35,486 nucleotides of DNA, taken from NCBI GenBank assembly GCA_903959175.1, contig CAJBVW010000160.1, positions 1 to 35,486 of the forward strand. The letters run 5' to 3'. The notes beneath the pieces are model-generated. The model did no database searches. It worked only from the letters and a program-made list of their open reading frames with translations, and had not been told where the DNA came from. Source of the DNA: an uncultured Pseudomonadota bacterium (GTDB lineage Bacteria > Myxococcota_A > UBA796 > SXON01). Positions 3,341 through 31,709 of the stretch are shown piece by piece (within the stretch, counting starts at the first letter, position 1; every line of letters starts with the position of its first letter). The position numbers were made by a program, and so were the translations under genes.

Positions 3341-4135
3341 CTACCCCAGCGCCGCGCACAGGGCCGCGAGCGCGCGGCCGACGCTGGCGTCCCCCAGGCG
3401 GTCGGCAGGGAGCACGCCGAGATCGACGACCTGGATGGCGCGCCGGCCCGTCGGGGGCGTCGGGGGGTCGGGCAGGCGCTGCGCGTCCGCGTCGGGGCCC
3501 GCGCGCAGCGTGAGGTACGGCACCTGCCGGTTCAGCTCGGTGTCGAAGGCGGCGTGCGTGAAGTGGGTGGCCAGCCACTCGGCGTCGAGCGTGGGCGCGA
3601 CGAGGAGCACGGCGCGGAGCCGGTCGCGGAGCCCGTGGGCGTCGTGGAGCAGGCGGAGCACGGCGTCGGCGCGCGCGTGCGCGGCCAGGATCAGGCGGGT
3701 GTCGGCGCGCGTGAGCAGCCGGTCGAGCGCCTCGAGGTCCACCGCGTCGAGCACGGTCGTCTCCAGGCCGTCCACCATCACGGGGGGCGGCTCGAACCAG
3801 ACGAGGCGTACGTTCTCGACGCGGCGGGCGACGGCGCTGCGCGTGGCGTCGTTCCACCCCGCGACCTCAGTCCAGCCACAGTCTGCCCCGAGCCGGAGGC
3901 GCGGATCGTCGACGGCCTCGAGCTGCGCGGGCGTGCCCTCGAAGCCCTCCGCGGGCACGGGGCCCCCGGTGAGCGGGAGGTTGCCGGGCCCGGAGAGGGC
4001 GGCGAGCACCGCGGCGAAAAAGGAGGCGGGGTCCCAGGGCGGGCCCGCGGCGCGGGTGAGCCAGACGACGACCGCGAGCAGGCCGGCGGCGACGGACCAC
4101 AACACGGCGTCGACGAGGAGGAAGGAGTCGGTCAT
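3341..4135 (-). CDS. Membrane-anchored protein of unknown function, coupled to the polymerase-like gene
   Basis: The 264-residue product starts MTDSFLLVDAVLWSVAAGLL; residues about 8-28 form one transmembrane anchor, and the rest is soluble. The region from about residue 110 alternates beta strands and helices (VRLVWFEPPP, TRLILAAHARADAV, RAVLLVAP), reminiscent of an alpha/beta-hydrolase core. However, the expected G-x-S-x-G elbow reads A-H-A-R-A, so no catalytic serine is visible and no function is assigned. The ATG at 4133-4135 overlaps the TGA of the upstream O-antigen-polymerase-like gene (4132-4134). The open frame extends upstream, but that part is Arg/Pro-rich shadow of the neighbour. 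Tight coupling suggests a role linked to polysaccharide assembly, by inference only. Confidence 0.75.
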   Translation of the reverse strand: MTDSFLLVDAVLWSVAAGLLAVVVWLTRAAGPPWDPASFFAAVLAALSGPGNLPLTGGPVPAEGFEGTPAQLEAVDDPRLRLGADCGWTEVAGWNDATRSAVARRVENVRLVWFEPPPVMVDGLETTVLDAVDLEALDRLLTRADTRLILAAHARADAVLRLLHDAHGLRDRLRAVLLVAPTLDAEWLATHFTHAAFDTELNRQVPYLTLRAGPDADAQRLPDPPTPPTGRRAIQVVDLGVLPADRLGDASVGRALAALCAALG

Positions 4136-5532
4136 CGGATGGAGAACGTCCAGGCGGGGATGGGGGTGCCGCCGGGCTCCTTGGCCCGGCGCGCGAGGAG
4201 GTGGAGCGCGGTGTAGACCGCCAGCCACTCCCAGAAGGGCTTCTCGTCGAGGCTGAACTCGACGAAGCTCCAGGCGAAGTATCCGGCCATGCTCGCGGGC
4301 ATCGCCCAGGCGAGCACCTCTGCTTCCGTACCCTTGGTGTCGCGGATGGTCTGCATCGTCATGCGTGCGAGCACGACGACCATCGCGACGAGCTGGAGCA
4401 CGCCGACCAGGCCGCCGTGCGCGACCTGGCCCCAGAAGATGCCGTGCGGGTAGCGGTAGACGGAGTGGTACAGCCAGTCACTGTACTTCTGCAGGTTGTC
4501 GATGTACCCGCCGGGGCCGATGCCGACGCCGTTGGTGTCGAAGAACATGCCGATGCACGCGGCCCAATTCAGCCCGCGCACGTCCTGTGCGAAGAGCACG
4601 TCCACGTTGGCGGAGATGCGGTTCAGGCCCTTGCCGATGTCGCCGATGTCGCCGACCGCCGCGACGAAGAAGAAGACAGCGCCGACGCCGAGGAAACGGA
4701 TGAACCACTTGCGGAACAGCGGCTGGCCGAGGGCGACGAGCATCCCGCCGATGACGATGGAGTAGGCGCCGCCGCGCGAGCCGCTCGTCATCATCGAGAA
4801 GAAGATGAAGAGGGTCGCGAGCATCAGGCCCCACCGCAGCACCGCGCGCCGCTGCACGAGCGCGAAGGCCGCGCAGGTGTGGACCACGAACATGAGGTTC
4901 ATCGCGAACCAGTTCGGCTGCTGGCCGAGGCCGGTCTCGCGGCCGCCGCCCGCCGACGCCTTCCACTGGCTGCCGTAGTCGGTGATGCCAAGCGCGTCGC
5001 CGAAGATCGCGAGGATCCCGATGAGGATGCACGCGCCGATCCAGGCCCAGATCGCCGTCTTCACGTCGTCCCACGTCCGGAGGAACGCGAGGATCACGGT
5101 GGTCGTCGCGAGGATGACGCCGAGGGTGACGACCTCCTTCGCGCCGTCGGAGAACTTGGTGCACCACGCGAGCCCCACGACGGCCCAGGCCATGATGGAG
5201 AGGAACACGCCCTGCCACGGCCACGGCCGCCAGAAGCGCATCCCCGCGAACACGCCGCGGAGGCCGAGCGCGATCAACGCGACGAGGAGCACGGGCTCGA
5301 ACAGTCCGATGCTGATCTTGCCGATGGTGAAGAACGAGGTGGTCCCGGTGGAGATCAACCGTGCCGCCAGCATGCCGCCGACGGCCCAGACCGGGCGATC
5401 CAGGAGCACCGCGCCGACGACGAAGCTCGCCGTGATCAGGACCGGCAGCCGCCAATCGACGACGAACAGCCCGAGCAGCACGAGCTGCACGGCCAGGACG
5501 AGGGCCGGGATGGCGAGACGGCCGACGTTCAT
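4132..5532 (-). CDS. O-antigen ligase/polymerase-like membrane protein (Wzy_C family)
   Basis: This 466-residue polytopic protein has roughly 10-12 hydrophobic segments. Around residue 250 lies the TSGSRGG motif, the S-R-[GA]-[GA] signature of the Wzy_C family (O-antigen ligase WaaL, polymerases Wzy and ExoQ-like). A long polar periplasmic loop follows (about residues 290-375, with IGPGGYIDNLQKYSD), as expected for these enzymes. Such proteins join undecaprenyl-pyrophosphate-linked glycans at the outer face of the inner membrane. Polymerase and ligase cannot be separated by motif. Wzc-, OPX-, WbaP- and Wzi-like genes elsewhere in this window make a polysaccharide polymerase plausible. The start ATG is at 5530-5532. 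It is divergent from the MopE-repeat gene and overlaps the downstream anchored-protein gene by four bases. Confidence 0.85.
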   Translation of the reverse strand: MNVGRLAIPALVLAVQLVLLGLFVVDWRLPVLITASFVVGAVLLDRPVWAVGGMLAARLISTGTTSFFTIGKISIGLFEPVLLVALIALGLRGVFAGMRFWRPWPWQGVFLSIMAWAVVGLAWCTKFSDGAKEVVTLGVILATTTVILAFLRTWDDVKTAIWAWIGACILIGILAIFGDALGITDYGSQWKASAGGGRETGLGQQPNWFAMNLMFVVHTCAAFALVQRRAVLRWGLMLATLFIFFSMMTSGSRGGAYSIVIGGMLVALGQPLFRKWFIRFLGVGAVFFFVAAVGDIGDIGKGLNRISANVDVLFAQDVRGLNWAACIGMFFDTNGVGIGPGGYIDNLQKYSDWLYHSVYRYPHGIFWGQVAHGGLVGVLQLVAMVVVLARMTMQTIRDTKGTEAEVLAWAMPASMAGYFAWSFVEFSLDEKPFWEWLAVYTALHLLARRAKEPGGTPIPAWTFSIR

Positions 5533-20364: not shown

Positions 20365-20416
20365 GAGCCGCGCCCGAGCCACGGCCGTGCCTACGCTTCG
20401 GGGGCTGGGGGCGGAG

Positions 20417-20896
20417 ATGGGGTTGTTGTGGTTCCTCGCGGGATGTTGGATCGACCTCTCGGATCTCGACGGGGAGGACCAGGCCGTGTCCTGCTCCGGG
20501 GGGGAGGCCCCGCTGACCTGGTTCCGCGATGCGGACGGCGACGGCTACGGGAGCGACGGCGACCCGCGCGTCGCGTGTGATCCGCCGCTCGGCCACAGCG
20601 CGGTGGGCGGCGATTGCGACGAGGCGGACCCCTCGGTCAACCCCGCCACCCCCGAGATCTGCAACGGCGCCGACGACGACTGCGACTTCCAAGTGGACGA
20701 GAGCGGCGCGATCTGGTGCAACGACGCCGACCTGGACGACCACGGCGACCCGGAGGAGGTCATCTACGCCTGCGAGCAGCCCATCGGGTACGCCGCCGCG
20801 TGCGATGACTGTGACGACGGCGACCCCGCGACCTACCCAGGCGCGGCCGAGGTCACGACGGACGAAGTAGAGAACGACTGCGACGCGCGGCCCTAG
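20417..20896 (+). CDS. Small MopE-type repeat lipoprotein
   Basis: The 159-residue product starts MGLLWFLAGC with lipobox L-A-G-C and Cys10. Its mature part holds two MopE-like units: a canonical one (DADGDGYG...GGDCDEADPSVNP...CNGADDDCD..VDE) and a second that ends at ENDCD, only three residues before the stop, so the final G-x-x-DE part is missing. These motifs are thought to bind metal ions. A GTG at 20387 in frame would extend the protein by ten residues and give a longer signal (MPTLRGLGAE added); ATG 20417 is preferred for its G-rich upstream run. The gene lies 52 bases after the PBP gene without a visible terminator, so read-through is likely. Confidence 0.8.
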   Translation: MGLLWFLAGCWIDLSDLDGEDQAVSCSGGEAPLTWFRDADGDGYGSDGDPRVACDPPLGHSAVGGDCDEADPSVNPATPEICNGADDDCDFQVDESGAIWCNDADLDDHGDPEEVIYACEQPIGYAAACDDCDDGDPATYPGAAEVTTDEVENDCDARP

Positions 20897-23489: not shown

Positions 23490-24545
23490 TTAGAGGCGGT
23501 ACATCATGTACTGAAGGGTCGCCACCACGTCGTCGTTCGCGTTGCGCGCGACGCGGAACGTGCTGAACACCACGCGGCCCGCGCCGGCGTTGAAGCTGTA
23601 GAGCAGCGGCACCGAGGTGAGCGTGTAGTCGGAGAGACCCTCCGAGTAGGGGACGCTGCCGGTGACGTGCACGGACACCGAGGCCGAGACGCTCTGGACC
23701 GGCGGCCACACGGGGAGGTCGTAGGTCACGTCGAGGTAGGAGGAGCCCAGGAACTCGGCGAGCGAGGTGTCGCTGACGGCGGCGGTGACGGTCTCGTAGT
23801 CGCCCACCTGGGCGTCGTCCGGGATCTCGTCCGCGCCCACGAAGTCGGCGCGATCGGGCCAGCCGATCTCGACCACGTCGTACGCCCAGTCGGAGGCGTA
23901 GATGCTGCCGCCGTTCTCGACGTAGCTCACGATGTTCGCGATGCGCTGGCTCGGCTCGAGGTTGGTGGCGTCCTCGACGTCGTAGATGACGCCGTCTTCG
24001 ACGAAGCCGCCGTTGAAGAAGATGATGTCGTACTTGGCGAGCTCGTTCGGGTCGTCCAGGAAGTCGGTGAGCTCGGACACGTCGAGGCCGTCCACCAGGA
24101 CGTAGTTCGCGAAGCCCATCTCGTTCAGGACGAGGTTGAAGTCGTCGTAGTCGCCAGTGACGATGGCCACGTCGAGCGCGAGGGGGTCGAAGCAGTCGGG
24201 GTCGGCGATCTCGTAGGTCTCGCCGTCGCCGAGCCAGATGGTCTCGGTGGAGAGGACCTCGGGGCCGTACTGCACGAAGTAGGTGTACTCGCGCTCGGCG
24301 GGGAGCTCGCCGATCTGCCAGTGCCCGTCGACGTCGGAGTAGGCGATCTTGGTGTCGACGATGACGCCGTCACCGTTGACGATGTTCACGTAGGCCTGCG
24401 CGTCGGCCAGCCAAGTGCGCCCGGACGGATCGCAGACGCGGCCCTTGATCGCGCCGTCCTCGATGACGACCGGGTCCTTCTTCTTGTACACGAGGGTGGT
24501 GTCCGAGCAGGCGACGAGGGCGAGAGCGAGCGTGATCAAGCGCAT
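23490..24545 (-). CDS. Lipoprotein with carboxypeptidase-regulatory-like and GATase-like domains
   Basis: The 351-residue product begins MRLITLALALVAC with lipidated Cys13. Residues about 30-115 (GAIKGRVCDPSGRTWLADAQ, later YSDVDGHWQIGELPAE) match a carboxypeptidase-regulatory-like beta domain. Residues about 122-345 have an alpha/beta pattern like class I glutamine amidotransferase folds: DVAIVTGDYDDFN, YDIIFFNGG, IVSYVENGGSIYASDWAYD, and a final GRVVFSTFRVA strand. The only cysteines are 13, 38 and 118, so the GATase-type nucleophile is absent and the domain is probably not an amidase. GGAG precedes the ATG by six bases. The role is unknown; it should face the periplasm. Confidence 0.8.
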   Translation of the reverse strand: MRLITLALALVACSDTTLVYKKKDPVVIEDGAIKGRVCDPSGRTWLADAQAYVNIVNGDGVIVDTKIAYSDVDGHWQIGELPAEREYTYFVQYGPEVLSTETIWLGDGETYEIADPDCFDPLALDVAIVTGDYDDFNLVLNEMGFANYVLVDGLDVSELTDFLDDPNELAKYDIIFFNGGFVEDGVIYDVEDATNLEPSQRIANIVSYVENGGSIYASDWAYDVVEIGWPDRADFVGADEIPDDAQVGDYETVTAAVSDTSLAEFLGSSYLDVTYDLPVWPPVQSVSASVSVHVTGSVPYSEGLSDYTLTSVPLLYSFNAGAGRVVFSTFRVARNANDDVVATLQYMMYRL

Positions 24546-24593: not shown

Positions 24594-26504
24594 TCATTCG
24601 TCTTCGGGGATTGGCGCGGAAGTCGCGGCCGGAGCCGATCCCAACGCCGCCAGCCGCCCCGCCATCTCCGCGGGACACGACGGGTCGTCGCGCGTGAGGT
24701 CGCGCGTTTCCCCTGGATCCGCGAGGAGGTCGAAGCAGGCGAGCGACGGGAGACGCCGCACGCCGGGGGCGCGGCGGAGCACCTGGACGAGCTTCCGCCC
24801 GCCGCTGCGCACCGCCTGGACCGAGGCCCCGCCACGCTCGAGCTCGATGAAGGCGTCGCGACTGCCGGGGTGTGTGGCCCAGGTCGGCGGCGCGAAGGGG
24901 GGGTCCGTCTCGTCGAGGGCGAACTCGGGGGGCGAGAGCAGCGCGAGGTGGTCGTCGAAGGCGTCCTCGAAGAGGGTGGTGCCCTCCCACGCCGGCGCGG
25001 CTTCGAAGCCGGTGAGGTCTGCTACCGTCGGCGCGAGGTCGATCTGGCGCACCTGCCACGGGACGCGGGTCCCGGCGCGCGCGTTGCCGGGGAGCTTCAC
25101 GAGGAGCGGCACGTGCAGCAGCTCGTCGTAGAGGGTCGCGCCGTCCCAGGCGGCGCCGTGGTCGAGCAGCTCGATGCCCTGGGCCCCGGTGACGACGACG
25201 AGGAGCGGGTCGTAGCGGCTGTCCGCCTTCAGGGCGGCGAAGAAGCGGCCGAGCGCGGCATCCACCCGGGCCACCTCGACGGCGTAGCGGCGGCGCAGGT
25301 CGGCGGACTCCTCCGGCGCGGGCATGGGGTGGGCCTCGCGGGTGTACGCGGTGCCGTCCGGCGGGTCGGGGAAGAAGGGCCCCTGCGGCTCCTGGAGGTG
25401 CACGAAGAGGAAGGCGCGGTCACCGCGGTTCGCGTCGAGGAAGGCGCGGCCCTCGTCGAGGAGGCGCTCGGCGGACGGTCGGTGATGCTCCACGCGCTCG
25501 GTGGGGTCGAAGCGCGCGTAGATACGGGCGCCGAGGCCGTAGAGGGTGAGCCGGGAGGCGCTCGCGGAGGCGCCGAGCGGGTGGTCGGGGGCGAACGGGT
25601 ACCAGTCGAAGCCCTGGTCGAGGCCCCATGTCGTCGTGAGCTCCGGTGTGCCCGGGAGGCCGCCGGTGGCGTAGCCGCCGTCGCGCAGGAGCTCCGCGAG
25701 GGTGACGGTGTCCTCCGGGAGCACGCCCTCGGTCGCGTGGTGCCGCGAGGGGGGCATCGAGGTGAAGATCGAGCCGACGGTGGCGCGCGTCCAGGCGGAG
25801 GCGGCCACGTTCTGCTCGAAGACGACGCTGTCCGCGGCGAGGGCGGCGAGCGCCGGGGTCGGGGCGCCGAGGACCGCGGGGTCGAGGGCGTCCGCGCGGA
25901 GGCCGCTCACGACGATGAGGACGACGTCCGGCTTCTCGGTGAAGGAGGCGGCCTGGAGCCGCCGCGGAGTGAGGGTGGCGAGCGCGCCCGGCGCCGGCGA
26001 CAGCGACAACATCGTCGTGACGACGAGGCCCGCGCCCCAGAGGGCGGCCGTACCGCGAGGGCGTTGGAGGACGCGGAGGGGGGTCTTGGTGAGGAGGTGC
26101 CCGCCGAGCCAGACGACCACCAGGGCGAGGGCGCCGAAGCCCCCCCCGATCGGCCCCATCGGGGCGGCGGGCCCGAGCGCGGCGCGGACGACGACGACCC
26201 CGACGGCCGCGGACACGGCGCCAAACCCGACGGACCACGCCCGCGCCCCCCCGATCCCGGCGAGGCGGCCCACGGGGACGAGCAGCGCGCCGATCCCGGC
26301 CCCGTACGCCGCCCCGATCAGCCCGTAGGCGAGCCACGCGTAGGCGAGCGCCTCGTACTCGGTGGGGCGCATCGTCGAGAGGACGCCGAGGGCCTCGACC
26401 CCGCCGGCGACCGCGCCGCCGCAGAGGCCGCCTGCGGCGCCGTACCAGAGGTAGGCGAGCGGACGCGGCAGCGGGGGCGGCACGCGCGGGGCGGGCACCC
26501 TCAA
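24594..26504 (-). CDS. Membrane-anchored sulfatase-fold protein lacking metal ligands (probable pseudoenzyme)
   Basis: With a TTG start overlapping the upstream stop (TTGA) the product is 636 residues; GTG at 26498 is an alternative. The N-terminal 180 residues hold about five hydrophobic segments. From about residue 193 the alkaline-phosphatase/sulfatase fold is clear: VVLIVVSGLRADAL, SAWTRATVGSIFTS, then VVVTGAQGIELLDHG and GATLYDELLHVPLLV. In active relatives the first block carries Asp where Ser200 stands, the third has S-D-H-G where G-A441-Q442-G stands, and a His stands at Asp454. The metal site therefore seems destroyed, though Thr239 sits at the nucleophile position. It adjoins the Wzi-like gene and may bind rather than hydrolyse glycans. 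Confidence 0.88.
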   Translation of the reverse strand: MRVPAPRVPPPLPRPLAYLWYGAAGGLCGGAVAGGVEALGVLSTMRPTEYEALAYAWLAYGLIGAAYGAGIGALLVPVGRLAGIGGARAWSVGFGAVSAAVGVVVVRAALGPAAPMGPIGGGFGALALVVVWLGGHLLTKTPLRVLQRPRGTAALWGAGLVVTTMLSLSPAPGALATLTPRRLQAASFTEKPDVVLIVVSGLRADALDPAVLGAPTPALAALAADSVVFEQNVAASAWTRATVGSIFTSMPPSRHHATEGVLPEDTVTLAELLRDGGYATGGLPGTPELTTTWGLDQGFDWYPFAPDHPLGASASASRLTLYGLGARIYARFDPTERVEHHRPSAERLLDEGRAFLDANRGDRAFLFVHLQEPQGPFFPDPPDGTAYTREAHPMPAPEESADLRRRYAVEVARVDAALGRFFAALKADSRYDPLLVVVTGAQGIELLDHGAAWDGATLYDELLHVPLLVKLPGNARAGTRVPWQVRQIDLAPTVADLTGFEAAPAWEGTTLFEDAFDDHLALLSPPEFALDETDPPFAPPTWATHPGSRDAFIELERGGASVQAVRSGGRKLVQVLRRAPGVRRLPSLACFDLLADPGETRDLTRDDPSCPAEMAGRLAALGSAPAATSAPIPEDE

Positions 26505-28002: not shown

Positions 28003-29058
28003 ATGCTCGTGCCGCTCCTCTCCAGCGTCCTGGCGGCGGCGCCGGCCGGGGCGCTCGGTCCGTTGGAGCGGGAGCTCGCCTGGGCCGCTCCCCTCCCCCA
28101 CGAGCTCCACGCCCCCGACCCCGTGGCGCCCCCGACCTGGGCCGAGCTCCCCGTGGCGCGCACGCTCCACCCCGTCGCCTTCCACTACGGCGCGCGCTTC
28201 CAGGGACTCCTCGCGGACACGATGGGCGGCACGCGAGCCAGCCCGGTGTTCGGCCCCGTCGTCGCGCAGGCGGACGTGCACTGGCGGCTCCTCGCGGCCA
28301 CTGGGCGCGGCCTCCCCCTCGACGCGCTCTCCCCCGCGCAATGGCGCGACACCGCCCTCGCCGGCACCTTCCTCGCGGGCGAGCGCCTCTTCGACGAGAC
28401 CATCGCGCGCGCCCCGGTGCTCCACGGCGCCTACGTCGTGGGCGACACCCTCCTCTCGCCCTCGCTGGAGGTGCGCCGCCGCGGCCCGAAGCAGGTGGAG
28501 GTGAACCATCGGGATGGCGGATCCGCTCGTCGCAACGTGGAGCGAGCTGAGGCCGAGCTCGTGGACGTGCGCCGCGAGCGGAACGCCACGCCCACGCTCG
28601 GCGCCGGCCTCGACTGGGACCTCCGCGAGGAGGACGCCCCGGAGAACGCCCCGCTCCTCCGCTACACCGCCTGGCTGAACCTCACCGAGCTCGGCATCAC
28701 CGGCCTGCGCGTCGAGTTCGCGCCGGCGAGCCTCACCTGGACCGTCTCCGGGAAGGAGCAGCTCCGCCCTCGGCTCTACCTCATCGGGAGCGCGCGCAGC
28801 GACGAGAAGGCGCCCGACCCGGCGCGGCTCTCCGGCGGCGTCATGTGGCTCCTCCCCTGGCGTGGGAACTGGAACCTGCGCGTCGAGCGCATCGTGCCGC
28901 TGCTGGAGGACGACGCGCGGTGGATGGTCACGCTGCGCTGCGAGAACCGCACGGACATCCCCGCGCCGCTCGCGCCGGTGCTCGGAGATCGCGGCCTCGC
29001 CGGCCCGACCCTGCCCTGGGTGACGCAGCGGGGCCCCAACGGACTGACCCGCTGGTAG
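28003..29058 (+). CDS. Secreted protein of unknown function, divergent from the Wzi-like gene
   Basis: The 351-residue product begins MLVPLLSSVLAAAPAGA, a signal peptide cleaved near residue 17. The mature protein has a Pro/His-rich start, a helical middle (AQWRDTALAGTFLAGERLFDE) and an Arg-rich charged segment (about residues 160-205). The second half has alternating strands such as LLRYTAWLNLTELGITGLRVEF and WNLRVERIVPLL. This may be a beta-rich or barrel-like domain, but no family was recognised. Earlier in-frame codons are Arg-rich shadow sequence. Its stop directly abuts the stop of the HEAT lipoprotein gene on the other strand. The divergent start shared with wzi hints at a related envelope role. 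Confidence 0.75.
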   Translation: MLVPLLSSVLAAAPAGALGPLERELAWAAPLPHELHAPDPVAPPTWAELPVARTLHPVAFHYGARFQGLLADTMGGTRASPVFGPVVAQADVHWRLLAATGRGLPLDALSPAQWRDTALAGTFLAGERLFDETIARAPVLHGAYVVGDTLLSPSLEVRRRGPKQVEVNHRDGGSARRNVERAEAELVDVRRERNATPTLGAGLDWDLREEDAPENAPLLRYTAWLNLTELGITGLRVEFAPASLTWTVSGKEQLRPRLYLIGSARSDEKAPDPARLSGGVMWLLPWRGNWNLRVERIVPLLEDDARWMVTLRCENRTDIPAPLAPVLGDRGLAGPTLPWVTQRGPNGLTRW

Positions 29059-29589
29059 CTACTTGAGGGTGCGCAGCGCCGTGTTCGTGCTGTAGCGGAC
29101 GTAGATGTCCTTCGTCGTGTCGCGGATGGCCACGAGCGCGACCAGCGACGCCTTCTTCGCGTCGGCGTCGAGGCCGCCGGCATCGCCGATGTGGCCGATG
29201 GCCCAGATACCCGCGAGCTGCTCGCGGTCGTCCGGCGAGAAGGTGGCGAGGTAGGCCAGGATCGGCAGGACGCCGTCCTTCGCCTCGAGGCGCCCGAGGG
29301 CGTCCGCTGCGGCGCGCTTGACCTTCGGGCTCTCGTCCGTCTGGAGCCGCTCGACGAGCGCGGCCGACACGGTGGTGGCCTCGAGCTCGGCGAGCGACTC
29401 GATGGCGTTGAGGCGGACCTGCTCCGAGGGGTCGGCGAGGACGGCGACGAGCGCGTCCACCACGACGGGGTCATCGAAGTTCTGGGCGATCTTGGCGCCG
29501 TCTTCCCGCATCACGGGGTTCTCGGACTTGATCGCCGTGGCGATCTCGTCGGGGCCGGCGCCGCAGGCGAGGAGGAGGGAGAGGAGCAT
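29059..29589 (-). CDS. HEAT-repeat lipoprotein coupled to the Wzc-like kinase gene
   Basis: The 176-residue product begins MLLSLLLAC, an unusually short lipoprotein signal with Cys9. The mature part is made of HEAT-type helical hairpins, with the classical pattern DPVVVDALVAVLADPSEQVRLNAIESLAEL, written here as DPSEQVRLNAIESL, and then SPKVKRAAADALGRLEAKDG. Four to five hairpins fill the protein. HEAT repeats bind partner proteins. The ATG shares one base with the TGA of the tyrosine-kinase gene (TGATG, 29587-29591), so the lipoprotein is translationally coupled to polysaccharide export. It may scaffold or regulate the export complex from the periplasmic side. This link is inference from position. 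Confidence 0.85.
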   Translation of the reverse strand: MLLSLLLACGAGPDEIATAIKSENPVMREDGAKIAQNFDDPVVVDALVAVLADPSEQVRLNAIESLAELEATTVSAALVERLQTDESPKVKRAAADALGRLEAKDGVLPILAYLATFSPDDREQLAGIWAIGHIGDAGGLDADAKKASLVALVAIRDTTKDIYVRYSTNTALRTLK

Positions 29590-31709
29590 CACGCCCCCTT
29601 CGCGGAGGGCTTGCCGGCGTCGGGAGGGCGCTGGGAGTAGAGCCGGGTGTACGCCCGATAGTTCCCGTATCCGGACGCGGCGGCGCTCACCTTGTTCAGC
29701 ACGACGCCGATGGGCTCGAAGCCGCTGCCCTCGATGCGGCCGCGCAGATCGGTGAGCATGCGGCGGGTCGTCTTCGCGCATTCGACCACGATCACCGTGC
29801 CCTTGGAGGCGCGGCCGAGGTTCAGCGCGTCGCCCACGGCGAGGATCGGCGGCGCGTCCACGAGTACCATGTCGAAGTTGCGGGCGAGCTCCTGCAACAT
29901 CTGGCGGAGGCGGAGGCTCTCCACGAGGCGGCCGGGGTTGGCCGGGAGCGGGCCGGAGGTGAGGATCGAGAGGTTCGCGACGGGGGTGGCCTGGATGGCG
30001 TCCATCAGGGGCATCGTCTGCGAGAGGACCGAGGAGACGCCACGATCGTTCGCGAGGGTCGCGAAGCCCTTGTGCTGCGTGGGGCGCCGGAGGTCGCAGT
30101 CGACGACGACTACGCGCTTGCCGTCGTTCGCGAGGCAGATCGCGAGGTTGGTGCAGAAGGTGCTCTTCCCCTCGCCCGGGATGCTCGACGTGACCGTGAG
30201 GATGTCGATGGGGGAGTCCACCCCGGCGAAGCCGATGCTGTTGCGGATGGCGCGGTAGGCCTCGAACAACGGGTCGGTCGGGGGGAGGTTGTGGATGAGC
30301 TGCGTCGGGCCCTTGAGCTTGTAGACGGGCACCATGCCGAGCACCGGGAGGGCCCAGGCGAGCTTGAGGTCCTCCCCGGACTTCACGGTGTCGTCGACGT
30401 ACTCGAAGAGGAACACGAGGCCGAAGCCGAGGCCCACGCCGACGATGCCGCCGAGCACGAGGTAGACGAGGAGCTTCGGCGCCGCCGCGCGATCCGGGGC
30501 CTTCGCGGGCTCGACGGCCTTCATGTCGGAGACGGTCATCGCCTCGGCGACGGCGATCTGGTACTGCTGCTCGAGCAGGGACTTGTAGATGGTCTCCGTC
30601 GCGTCCGCCGCGAGCTGAAGCTCCGCGATCTTCCTGCCCTTCTCGGGGAAGGTACCGGCCTCGGCGACGGTGCCCTGGACGGCGGAGAGCAGCTCGGCCC
30701 GGCGCTGGAGGAGGCCCGCGAACTGGACCTGGAGGACCTCGACCGCGGGGTCGAGCTCGTGCTGTTCGCGCAGGGCGAGGGTGATCTCGGCCTCGACGCT
30801 GGCGATCTGCTGGTCGAGGTCGACGACGTCGGGGTGCTTCGGCGTCTTGTCGAGGAGCTGGACCTGGCGCTGGAGGCGGAGCTCGGTGAGCTTGCCGCGG
30901 AGCTCGCGGATCTGGGCGTTCGTGGCGACGGAGGACGGGCTCACGAGGTCGACCGACTCGGCGTCGCTCTGCTTGCGGAGCGTGCGGATCTGGGCCTGGA
31001 GGTCGGCCATCTCGGCGTCCGCCGTGACGATCTCGCCGACGAGCGCGCTGGCGCGGGTGACGGCGGCCTTGGTCTCGGCGTCGAGGTCGATGATCTGCTC
31101 GGCCTGCAGGGCCTGCGCGACGTTCTTGAGGGCCTTGTCGAACTCGGTCTCGAGCTTGTCGAGCTCGCTCTGGACGAAGGTGAGCGCCTGGCGCGTCTCC
31201 TTCTTCGCCGCTTCCTGCGAGACCTCGAGGTAGACGGTGACCATCGTGTCCGCGAGGAGCGCGGAGAGCTCGGGGGTCTCCGAGGTGGCGGTGAACACGA
31301 GGATGTTCGTGCCCTGGGCCTGCACGATGGCGATCCAGGGCTGGGCGAGGATCTCGCCGTCGATCCCCGGGATGAGGAGCTTCTCCGCGGGGAGCAGCTC
31401 GCCGTCGAGGTCGCGGAGCTGGAGCCGCCAGATGACCTCGTCGAGCACGGGGCGCATCTGCGCCAGCGAGATCTTCGTCATCATGTCGTCGGAGGAGCCC
31501 GAGAGGGACTGCGCCATCTCGGAGAGGTCCATCTCGCCGAGGATCGACATGGACGCCGAGGACGACTCCACGGCGAGCTTCGCCGAGGCCTCGTACCGCT
31601 TCGGCAGCACCATCGCGAGCGCGCCTGCGCCCACGGTGAAGAACACGACCGCCTGGAGGAAGATCCACTTCCTGCGGAGCAGCGCGGCGTAGACCTTGAG
31701 AAGCTCCAT
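29589..31709 (-). CDS. Wzc-like polysaccharide co-polymerase with BY-kinase domain
   Basis: The 706-residue protein has two membrane helices (about residues 17-36 and 415-440) flanking a periplasmic Wzz-type region with long coiled coils (about 165-400). The C-terminal bacterial tyrosine kinase has Walker A SSIPGEGKST (K515), Walker A' VVVVDCDLRRP (D537, D539) and Walker B MVLVDAPP (D618). A tyrosine cluster follows at Y681, Y684, Y687 and Y691. Such proteins control chain length and, through cyclic autophosphorylation of the tyrosine tail, drive export with the OPX protein. All kinase motifs are intact and the fusion is of the proteobacterial single-chain type. A Wzb phosphatase is not seen in the window. 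It is divergent from the OPX gene. Confidence 0.96.
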   Translation of the reverse strand: MELLKVYAALLRRKWIFLQAVVFFTVGAGALAMVLPKRYEASAKLAVESSSASMSILGEMDLSEMAQSLSGSSDDMMTKISLAQMRPVLDEVIWRLQLRDLDGELLPAEKLLIPGIDGEILAQPWIAIVQAQGTNILVFTATSETPELSALLADTMVTVYLEVSQEAAKKETRQALTFVQSELDKLETEFDKALKNVAQALQAEQIIDLDAETKAAVTRASALVGEIVTADAEMADLQAQIRTLRKQSDAESVDLVSPSSVATNAQIRELRGKLTELRLQRQVQLLDKTPKHPDVVDLDQQIASVEAEITLALREQHELDPAVEVLQVQFAGLLQRRAELLSAVQGTVAEAGTFPEKGRKIAELQLAADATETIYKSLLEQQYQIAVAEAMTVSDMKAVEPAKAPDRAAAPKLLVYLVLGGIVGVGLGFGLVFLFEYVDDTVKSGEDLKLAWALPVLGMVPVYKLKGPTQLIHNLPPTDPLFEAYRAIRNSIGFAGVDSPIDILTVTSSIPGEGKSTFCTNLAICLANDGKRVVVVDCDLRRPTQHKGFATLANDRGVSSVLSQTMPLMDAIQATPVANLSILTSGPLPANPGRLVESLRLRQMLQELARNFDMVLVDAPPILAVGDALNLGRASKGTVIVVECAKTTRRMLTDLRGRIEGSGFEPIGVVLNKVSAAASGYGNYRAYTRLYSQRPPDAGKPSAKGA

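Follow-up and report, generated by a model that had tools for sequence, protein, structure and literature searches.

The window (the whole stretch of DNA analysed, 35,486 nucleotides) encodes a membrane protein of the sulfatase fold within a group of genes related to surface polysaccharides. The following features are relevant to its interpretation.

4132-5532: weak O-antigen-ligase match
23490..24545, minus strand: downstream gene with a weak CarboxypepD_reg match, 48 bp from the sulfatase-fold gene and found beside it in many loci
24594..26504, minus strand: sulfatase-fold gene (636 aa, TTG start), a membrane-anchored member of the alkaline phosphatase superfamily and predicted pseudoenzyme
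25950..26504, minus strand: its membrane-embedded N-terminal part, for which hydropathy indicates about 4-6 helices
26501..27979, minus strand: wzi-like outer-membrane capsule assembly gene (PF14052, E = 3.9e-30), upstream of the sulfatase-fold gene with a 4-nt overlap
29589..31709, minus strand: Wzc-like chain-length/tyrosine-kinase gene (Wzz, GNVR, AAA_31), indicating a polysaccharide context

The TTG start of the sulfatase-fold gene, at 26504, lies inside the TTGA shared with the wzi stop, and the same 4-nt overlap is found at two further loci (L042 and L043). The three species of the genus agree in the order of wzi, the sulfatase-fold gene and the 23490-24545 gene. The proposal, made earlier from the sequence alone, that the gene is cotranscribed with a Wzi-like gene is supported, as an operon-like gene order, by the upstream PF14052 match, the overlap and this conserved order. 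Most other genomes of the window's family possess one wzi, located elsewhere. E. coli Wzi is described as an outer-membrane lectin (PMC3791409). A search of open-access papers found no account of a wzi-linked pseudo-sulfatase.

Two further genes of the window lie on the plus strand. The gene at 28003-29058, conserved and without an assigned family, is divergent from wzi at a distance of about 24 bp and accompanies the sulfatase-fold gene also in loci that lack wzi. The small protein encoded at 20387-20896 carries MopE-type putative metal-binding repeats (PF11617).

Fold and family assignment

The sulfatase/alkaline-phosphatase framework is well kept, as the sequence-only reading had stated. 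A profile search matched residues 192-499 to PF00884 (E = 5e-30; 105 bits against a cut-off of 25), and the common fold of this family was also found in the structural model. The AlphaFold2 model of the domain, built for residues 180-636 from eight sequences, has a confident core and a pTM of 0.65, with a low-confidence, unresolved loop at 443-462 that carries Asp454. Structure prediction and superposition, which had been proposed as a check, confirmed a sulfatase-like fold: Foldseek matched the model to phosphonate monoester hydrolases and sulfatases (E = 4e-16), with the best Z score of 28.3 for the phosphonate monoester hydrolase 4uph, followed by 26.4 for LtaP, 26.1 for YejM/PbgA (chain 5i5h) and 25.8 for LtaS. 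The full-length AlphaFold model, of low confidence (three sequences, pLDDT 36), places helices at residues 14-166, and we infer an inner-membrane topology.

Phosphonate monoester hydrolases and type I sulfatases are the closest to the window protein both by sequence (4upk, E = 3e-17) and by fold (4uph), but the protein differs from them in being membrane-anchored, in having Thr239 instead of Cys or Ser, and in lacking the metal Asp/Asp/His. The type I (formylglycine) sulfatase motif C/S-x-P/A-S-R is absent from the protein, which has T239-R-A-T at the aligned position. The catalytic, metal-dependent PF00884 set Asp ... Asp-His is likewise not found, its positions being occupied by S200, A441 and Q442, and of the LtaS/EptA-type phosphotransferase set, a Thr nucleophile with Glu/Asp, Asp and His as metal ligands, the Thr is kept and the other three are lost. 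The LtaS model matches weakly (E = 0.019), and the score against the NCBIfam model LapC_YejM_PbgA (19.6 bits) is far below its cut-off of 825.

Active-site residues

The codons concerned, all on the minus strand, are the following.

25905..25907: Ser200, first metal ligand position; Asp in the 34 intact orthologues
25788..25790: Thr239, kept; nucleophile position, equivalent to the formylglycine Cys in 4upk
25641..25643: Glu288; Asn in intact orthologues, E/D/D across the three species of the genus
25383..25385: Gln374; His in intact orthologues (motif EPHDPYF)
25179..25184: Ala441-Gln442; metal ligands Asp-His in intact orthologues
25143..25145: Asp454; intact orthologues have His here, and the three species of the genus all have Asp

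Ser200 precedes GLRAD, Ala441-Gln442 precede a Gly, Asp454 precedes GATLYDE and Thr239 lies in SAWTRAT. Alignment to solved phosphonate monoester hydrolases assigned position 200 to the first metal Asp and 441-442 to the Asp-His pair; positions 374 and 454 are, by motif alignment, what we take to be the substrate-contacting His/Lys of sulfatases. The substitutions described earlier at 200, 441-442 and 454 were correct in residue and numbering, and they fall on the positions at which intact orthologues and solved hydrolases alike have the canonical D, DH and H. The accompanying statement that all metal ligands are replaced holds for three of the four positions (200, 441 and 442) and has to be corrected for the fourth, since Thr239, at the nucleophile/ligand position, is kept. 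The earlier description had also missed the loss of an active-site His, that of the EPHDP motif, where H374 is replaced in Q374-G375.

The damage is concentrated at the catalytic site: five of the six catalytic columns are changed in the window protein, whereas among 50 further columns with hardly any variation in the 34 intact orthologues the number changed is 9 (one-sided Fisher test, p = 0.003). Several of these nine (M371, D375, E444) adjoin catalytic motifs.

The position of the Thr nucleophile, the single-metal architecture and the N-terminal membrane helices are features which the window protein has in common with LtaS/LtaP and EptA/MCR, despite a weak sequence similarity. The ligands of LtaS are Glu255, Thr300, Asp475 and His476 (PMC7576196); the counterparts of E255, D475 and H476 in the window protein are S200, A441 and Q442.

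Intact and degenerate orthologues

The orthologue search covered 58 relatives, most of which hold a full-length orthologue, and the alignment comprises 47 orthologues, drawn from as many genomes of the order. D200, T239, H374, D441, H442 and H454 are retained without exception in 34 of them, whereas 13, in at least three lineages, have lost some catalytic residues and are termed degenerate here. The degenerate state is derived, because most orthologues are intact and other orders of the class hold intact copies too. Homologues with the canonical ligands retained, which the earlier reading had set against a pseudoenzyme, therefore do exist, and in the majority; they make the loss a lineage-specific event and not a property of the family, but they do not rescue catalysis in the window protein, whose site loss stands. 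The intact orthologues of the order (e.g. L065, L069, L089) have the same architecture as the window protein at about 30-48% identity, and some of them also lie beside wzi; they differ in keeping all six catalytic residues, and in many of them a PF01663 phosphodiesterase-like gene follows.

On the tree, catalytic loss of whatever kind requires at least three changes, and the loss of metal ligands at least four. The window's genus forms one clade with the copy of genome G007 (support 86/84), with which it has D454 in common; five copies from another genus constitute a second degenerate clade, and the pairs L051/L055 and L048/L090 are others. Some degenerate copies, such as L090 with all its metal ligands, may still be enzymes.

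Of the 46 copies that were scored, 11 have a neighbouring wzi, and these 11 belong to four families of the order; they comprise 8 of 13 degenerate versus 3 of 33 intact copies (p = 0.0006 on raw counts). The tree holds three independent pairs for this comparison, and we do not claim significance for the association given so few independent events.

We rejected the possibility that the gene had been duplicated and an intact copy retained at another site: no intact orthologue was found elsewhere in the window genome, in which the next matches are distant paralogues, the best being 33% identical. This genome (G000) has many PF00884-like matches, among them two tandem membrane sulfatase-fold paralogues with canonical DHG motifs (C546:2489-5847). 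Scans of viral contigs returned distant sulfatases only.

A possible phosphodiesterase-like partner of intact copies

The PF01663 phosphodiesterase-like gene lies directly downstream of many intact copies, its orthologues being 50-60% identical. Examples of this arrangement are L074:2253-3878, L065, L069, L070, L071, L106 and L110; in L074 a glycosyltransferase follows it.

It can be hypothesised that intact members act together with the protein encoded by this gene, and that the loss of this partner was the cause of the degeneration of the site, leaving only a structural role that was, in some lineages, exercised together with Wzi. An orthologue of the partner is present in 16 of 34 genomes with an intact copy and in none of the 13 with a degenerate one (p = 0.0017), and within the window's family the figures are 10 of 13 and 0 of 9 (p = 0.0005). 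Intact copies from another order (L106, L110) likewise have the partner beside them, and in one clade the intact copies without it branch beside degenerate ones. This distribution suggests that partner loss preceded or permitted degeneration. However, the partner is also missing from 18 intact copies, and the tree provides three independent pairs that differ in degeneracy and six that differ in the partner, of which about one or two are informative in each case, so that common ancestry could explain the pattern; with so few independent events, no significance is claimed for the link. We regard this scenario as a tentative one, with odds somewhat against it. It is compatible with the reading of the window protein as a non-catalytic component, of which it concerns the cause.

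Replacements within the genus and maintenance of the gene

Each of the three species in the window's genus has a degenerate copy, and the replacements differ between them: S, E or D at position 200 and AQ, SH or GQ at 441-442. Common to them are D454, an acidic residue at 288 and the loss of D441 and H374. The sister species retain a few ligands, D200 in G001, and E200 and H442 in G002. As to the check proposed earlier, whether the substitutions are conserved in homologues next to wzi, D454 and the loss of D441 and H374 recur throughout the genus, the replacements at 200 and 441-442 vary, and three wzi-adjacent copies are intact.

Such a combination could also arise in a rewired enzyme, in which E/D288 and D454 would form with T239 a new metal or substrate site, for catalysis with an altered chemistry or specificity. 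The persistent acidity of 288 and 454 in the three species, while the old ligands vary, and the retention of Thr or Ser at 239 in all of them speak for this, as does the tolerance of non-canonical ligands in YejM. The acidic positions do not, however, match known ligand positions, the conserved gains amount to two residues, one of which (454) lies in the loop without model resolution, and D441 and H374, invariant in the 34 intact orthologues, are lost in all three species. We consider a rewired enzyme improbable.

The gene itself is maintained. The three species hold open frames of 636-657 aa, 66-71% identical and in the same synteny, and the dN/dS of the sulfatase-fold gene among them is 0.29-0.39, compared with 0.19-0.31 for wzi and similar to the 0.19-0.35 of wzi, the downstream gene and an epimerase together. 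Usable values were obtained for eight intact pairs, seven of which lie at 0.16-0.29 and the eighth at 0.63. All these dN/dS values are estimates from simple counting, and the genome is rich in GC. A maintained pseudoenzyme, as first proposed from the sequence, is therefore well supported. Early decay, in which the substrate was lost and the gene is drifting towards a pseudogene, could account for the rapid divergence of some degenerate copies (a tip of 1.6 for L058, a dN/dS of 0.51 for L051/L055) and for the G025 copy (L062:5500-7573), split across two overlapping frames by a frameshift or an assembly error, but it is the least probable of the alternatives given the open frames, synteny and wzi overlap in three species, their dN/dS, and the value of 0.09 for the degenerate pair L081/L085, which is 89% identical.

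Proposed function

The window protein is a homologue of enzymes that has lost catalytic residues and whose gene is kept by selection, as expected of a pseudoenzyme, and it is probably inactive. Loss of catalysis in the window's genus, as predicted from the residues, is well supported. A partial site is nevertheless no proof of inactivity, because YejM, with an Arg at the His ligand position, reportedly has Mg-dependent phosphatase activity (PMC7576196).

We propose, with a probability of roughly 0.6, that the window protein serves a Wzi/Wzc surface-polysaccharide system as a membrane component without catalytic activity, being a lineage-specific pseudoenzyme that works in the manner of YejM/PbgA. 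Its ancestor in the alkaline phosphatase superfamily would have been a periplasmic enzyme tethered to the membrane, which used a Thr nucleophile and a single metal site, as found in the branch of lipoteichoic acid synthases, phosphoethanolamine transferases and YejM. Judging by their architecture and neighbours, intact members would be periplasmic enzymes, anchored in the inner membrane, whose substrate is an envelope glycan or lipid that bears phosphate or sulfate. The catalytic site (D200, D441, H442, H374, H454) would then have been abandoned in the window's genus, while the fold, the anchor, the operon and purifying selection were kept. A binding, scaffold or regulatory role is the simplest reading of a protein that has lost its metal site and retained its anchor, fold and operon; such a part could act at the inner membrane and periplasm in Wzi/Wzc polysaccharide assembly. 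The glycan receptor or regulator suggested earlier is plausible by analogy.

The analogue is YejM/PbgA/LapC of enteric bacteria, which has the same architecture of several TM helices and a periplasmic alkaline phosphatase superfamily domain, a partly altered active site, and a regulatory role, in the control of LPS synthesis, that is not clearly catalytic. The essential function of YejM/PbgA resides in its membrane part (PMC6921655). YejM keeps Asp268 and Thr302 (PMC7576196), whereas in the window protein neither metal Asp is left, and its gene belongs to a wzi operon.

A broader proposition, that a membrane phospho- or sulfotransferase from surface-polysaccharide operons was independently made non-catalytic several times in the order, always in genomes without the partner, and that its dead form became a dedicated regulator or glycan-binding subunit of the inner membrane, coupled to Wzi, appears unlikely as a whole, though less so than a rewired enzyme. 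To our knowledge, bacterial pseudoenzymes of the alkaline phosphatase superfamily are mainly represented by the disputed case of YejM. The present family, with intact and several separately degenerated copies of one orthologous group within one order, some beside wzi at the same locus, offers a natural series in which to ask at what point and for what reason a membrane transferase turns into an envelope protein without catalysis, and if a scaffold role predated the catalytic loss. In L055 (5874-8009) and L051 (5776-8010), a different PF01663-like protein with its DH motif kept lies between wzi and the degenerate copy, and a dead and a possibly live member of the superfamily thus adjoin.
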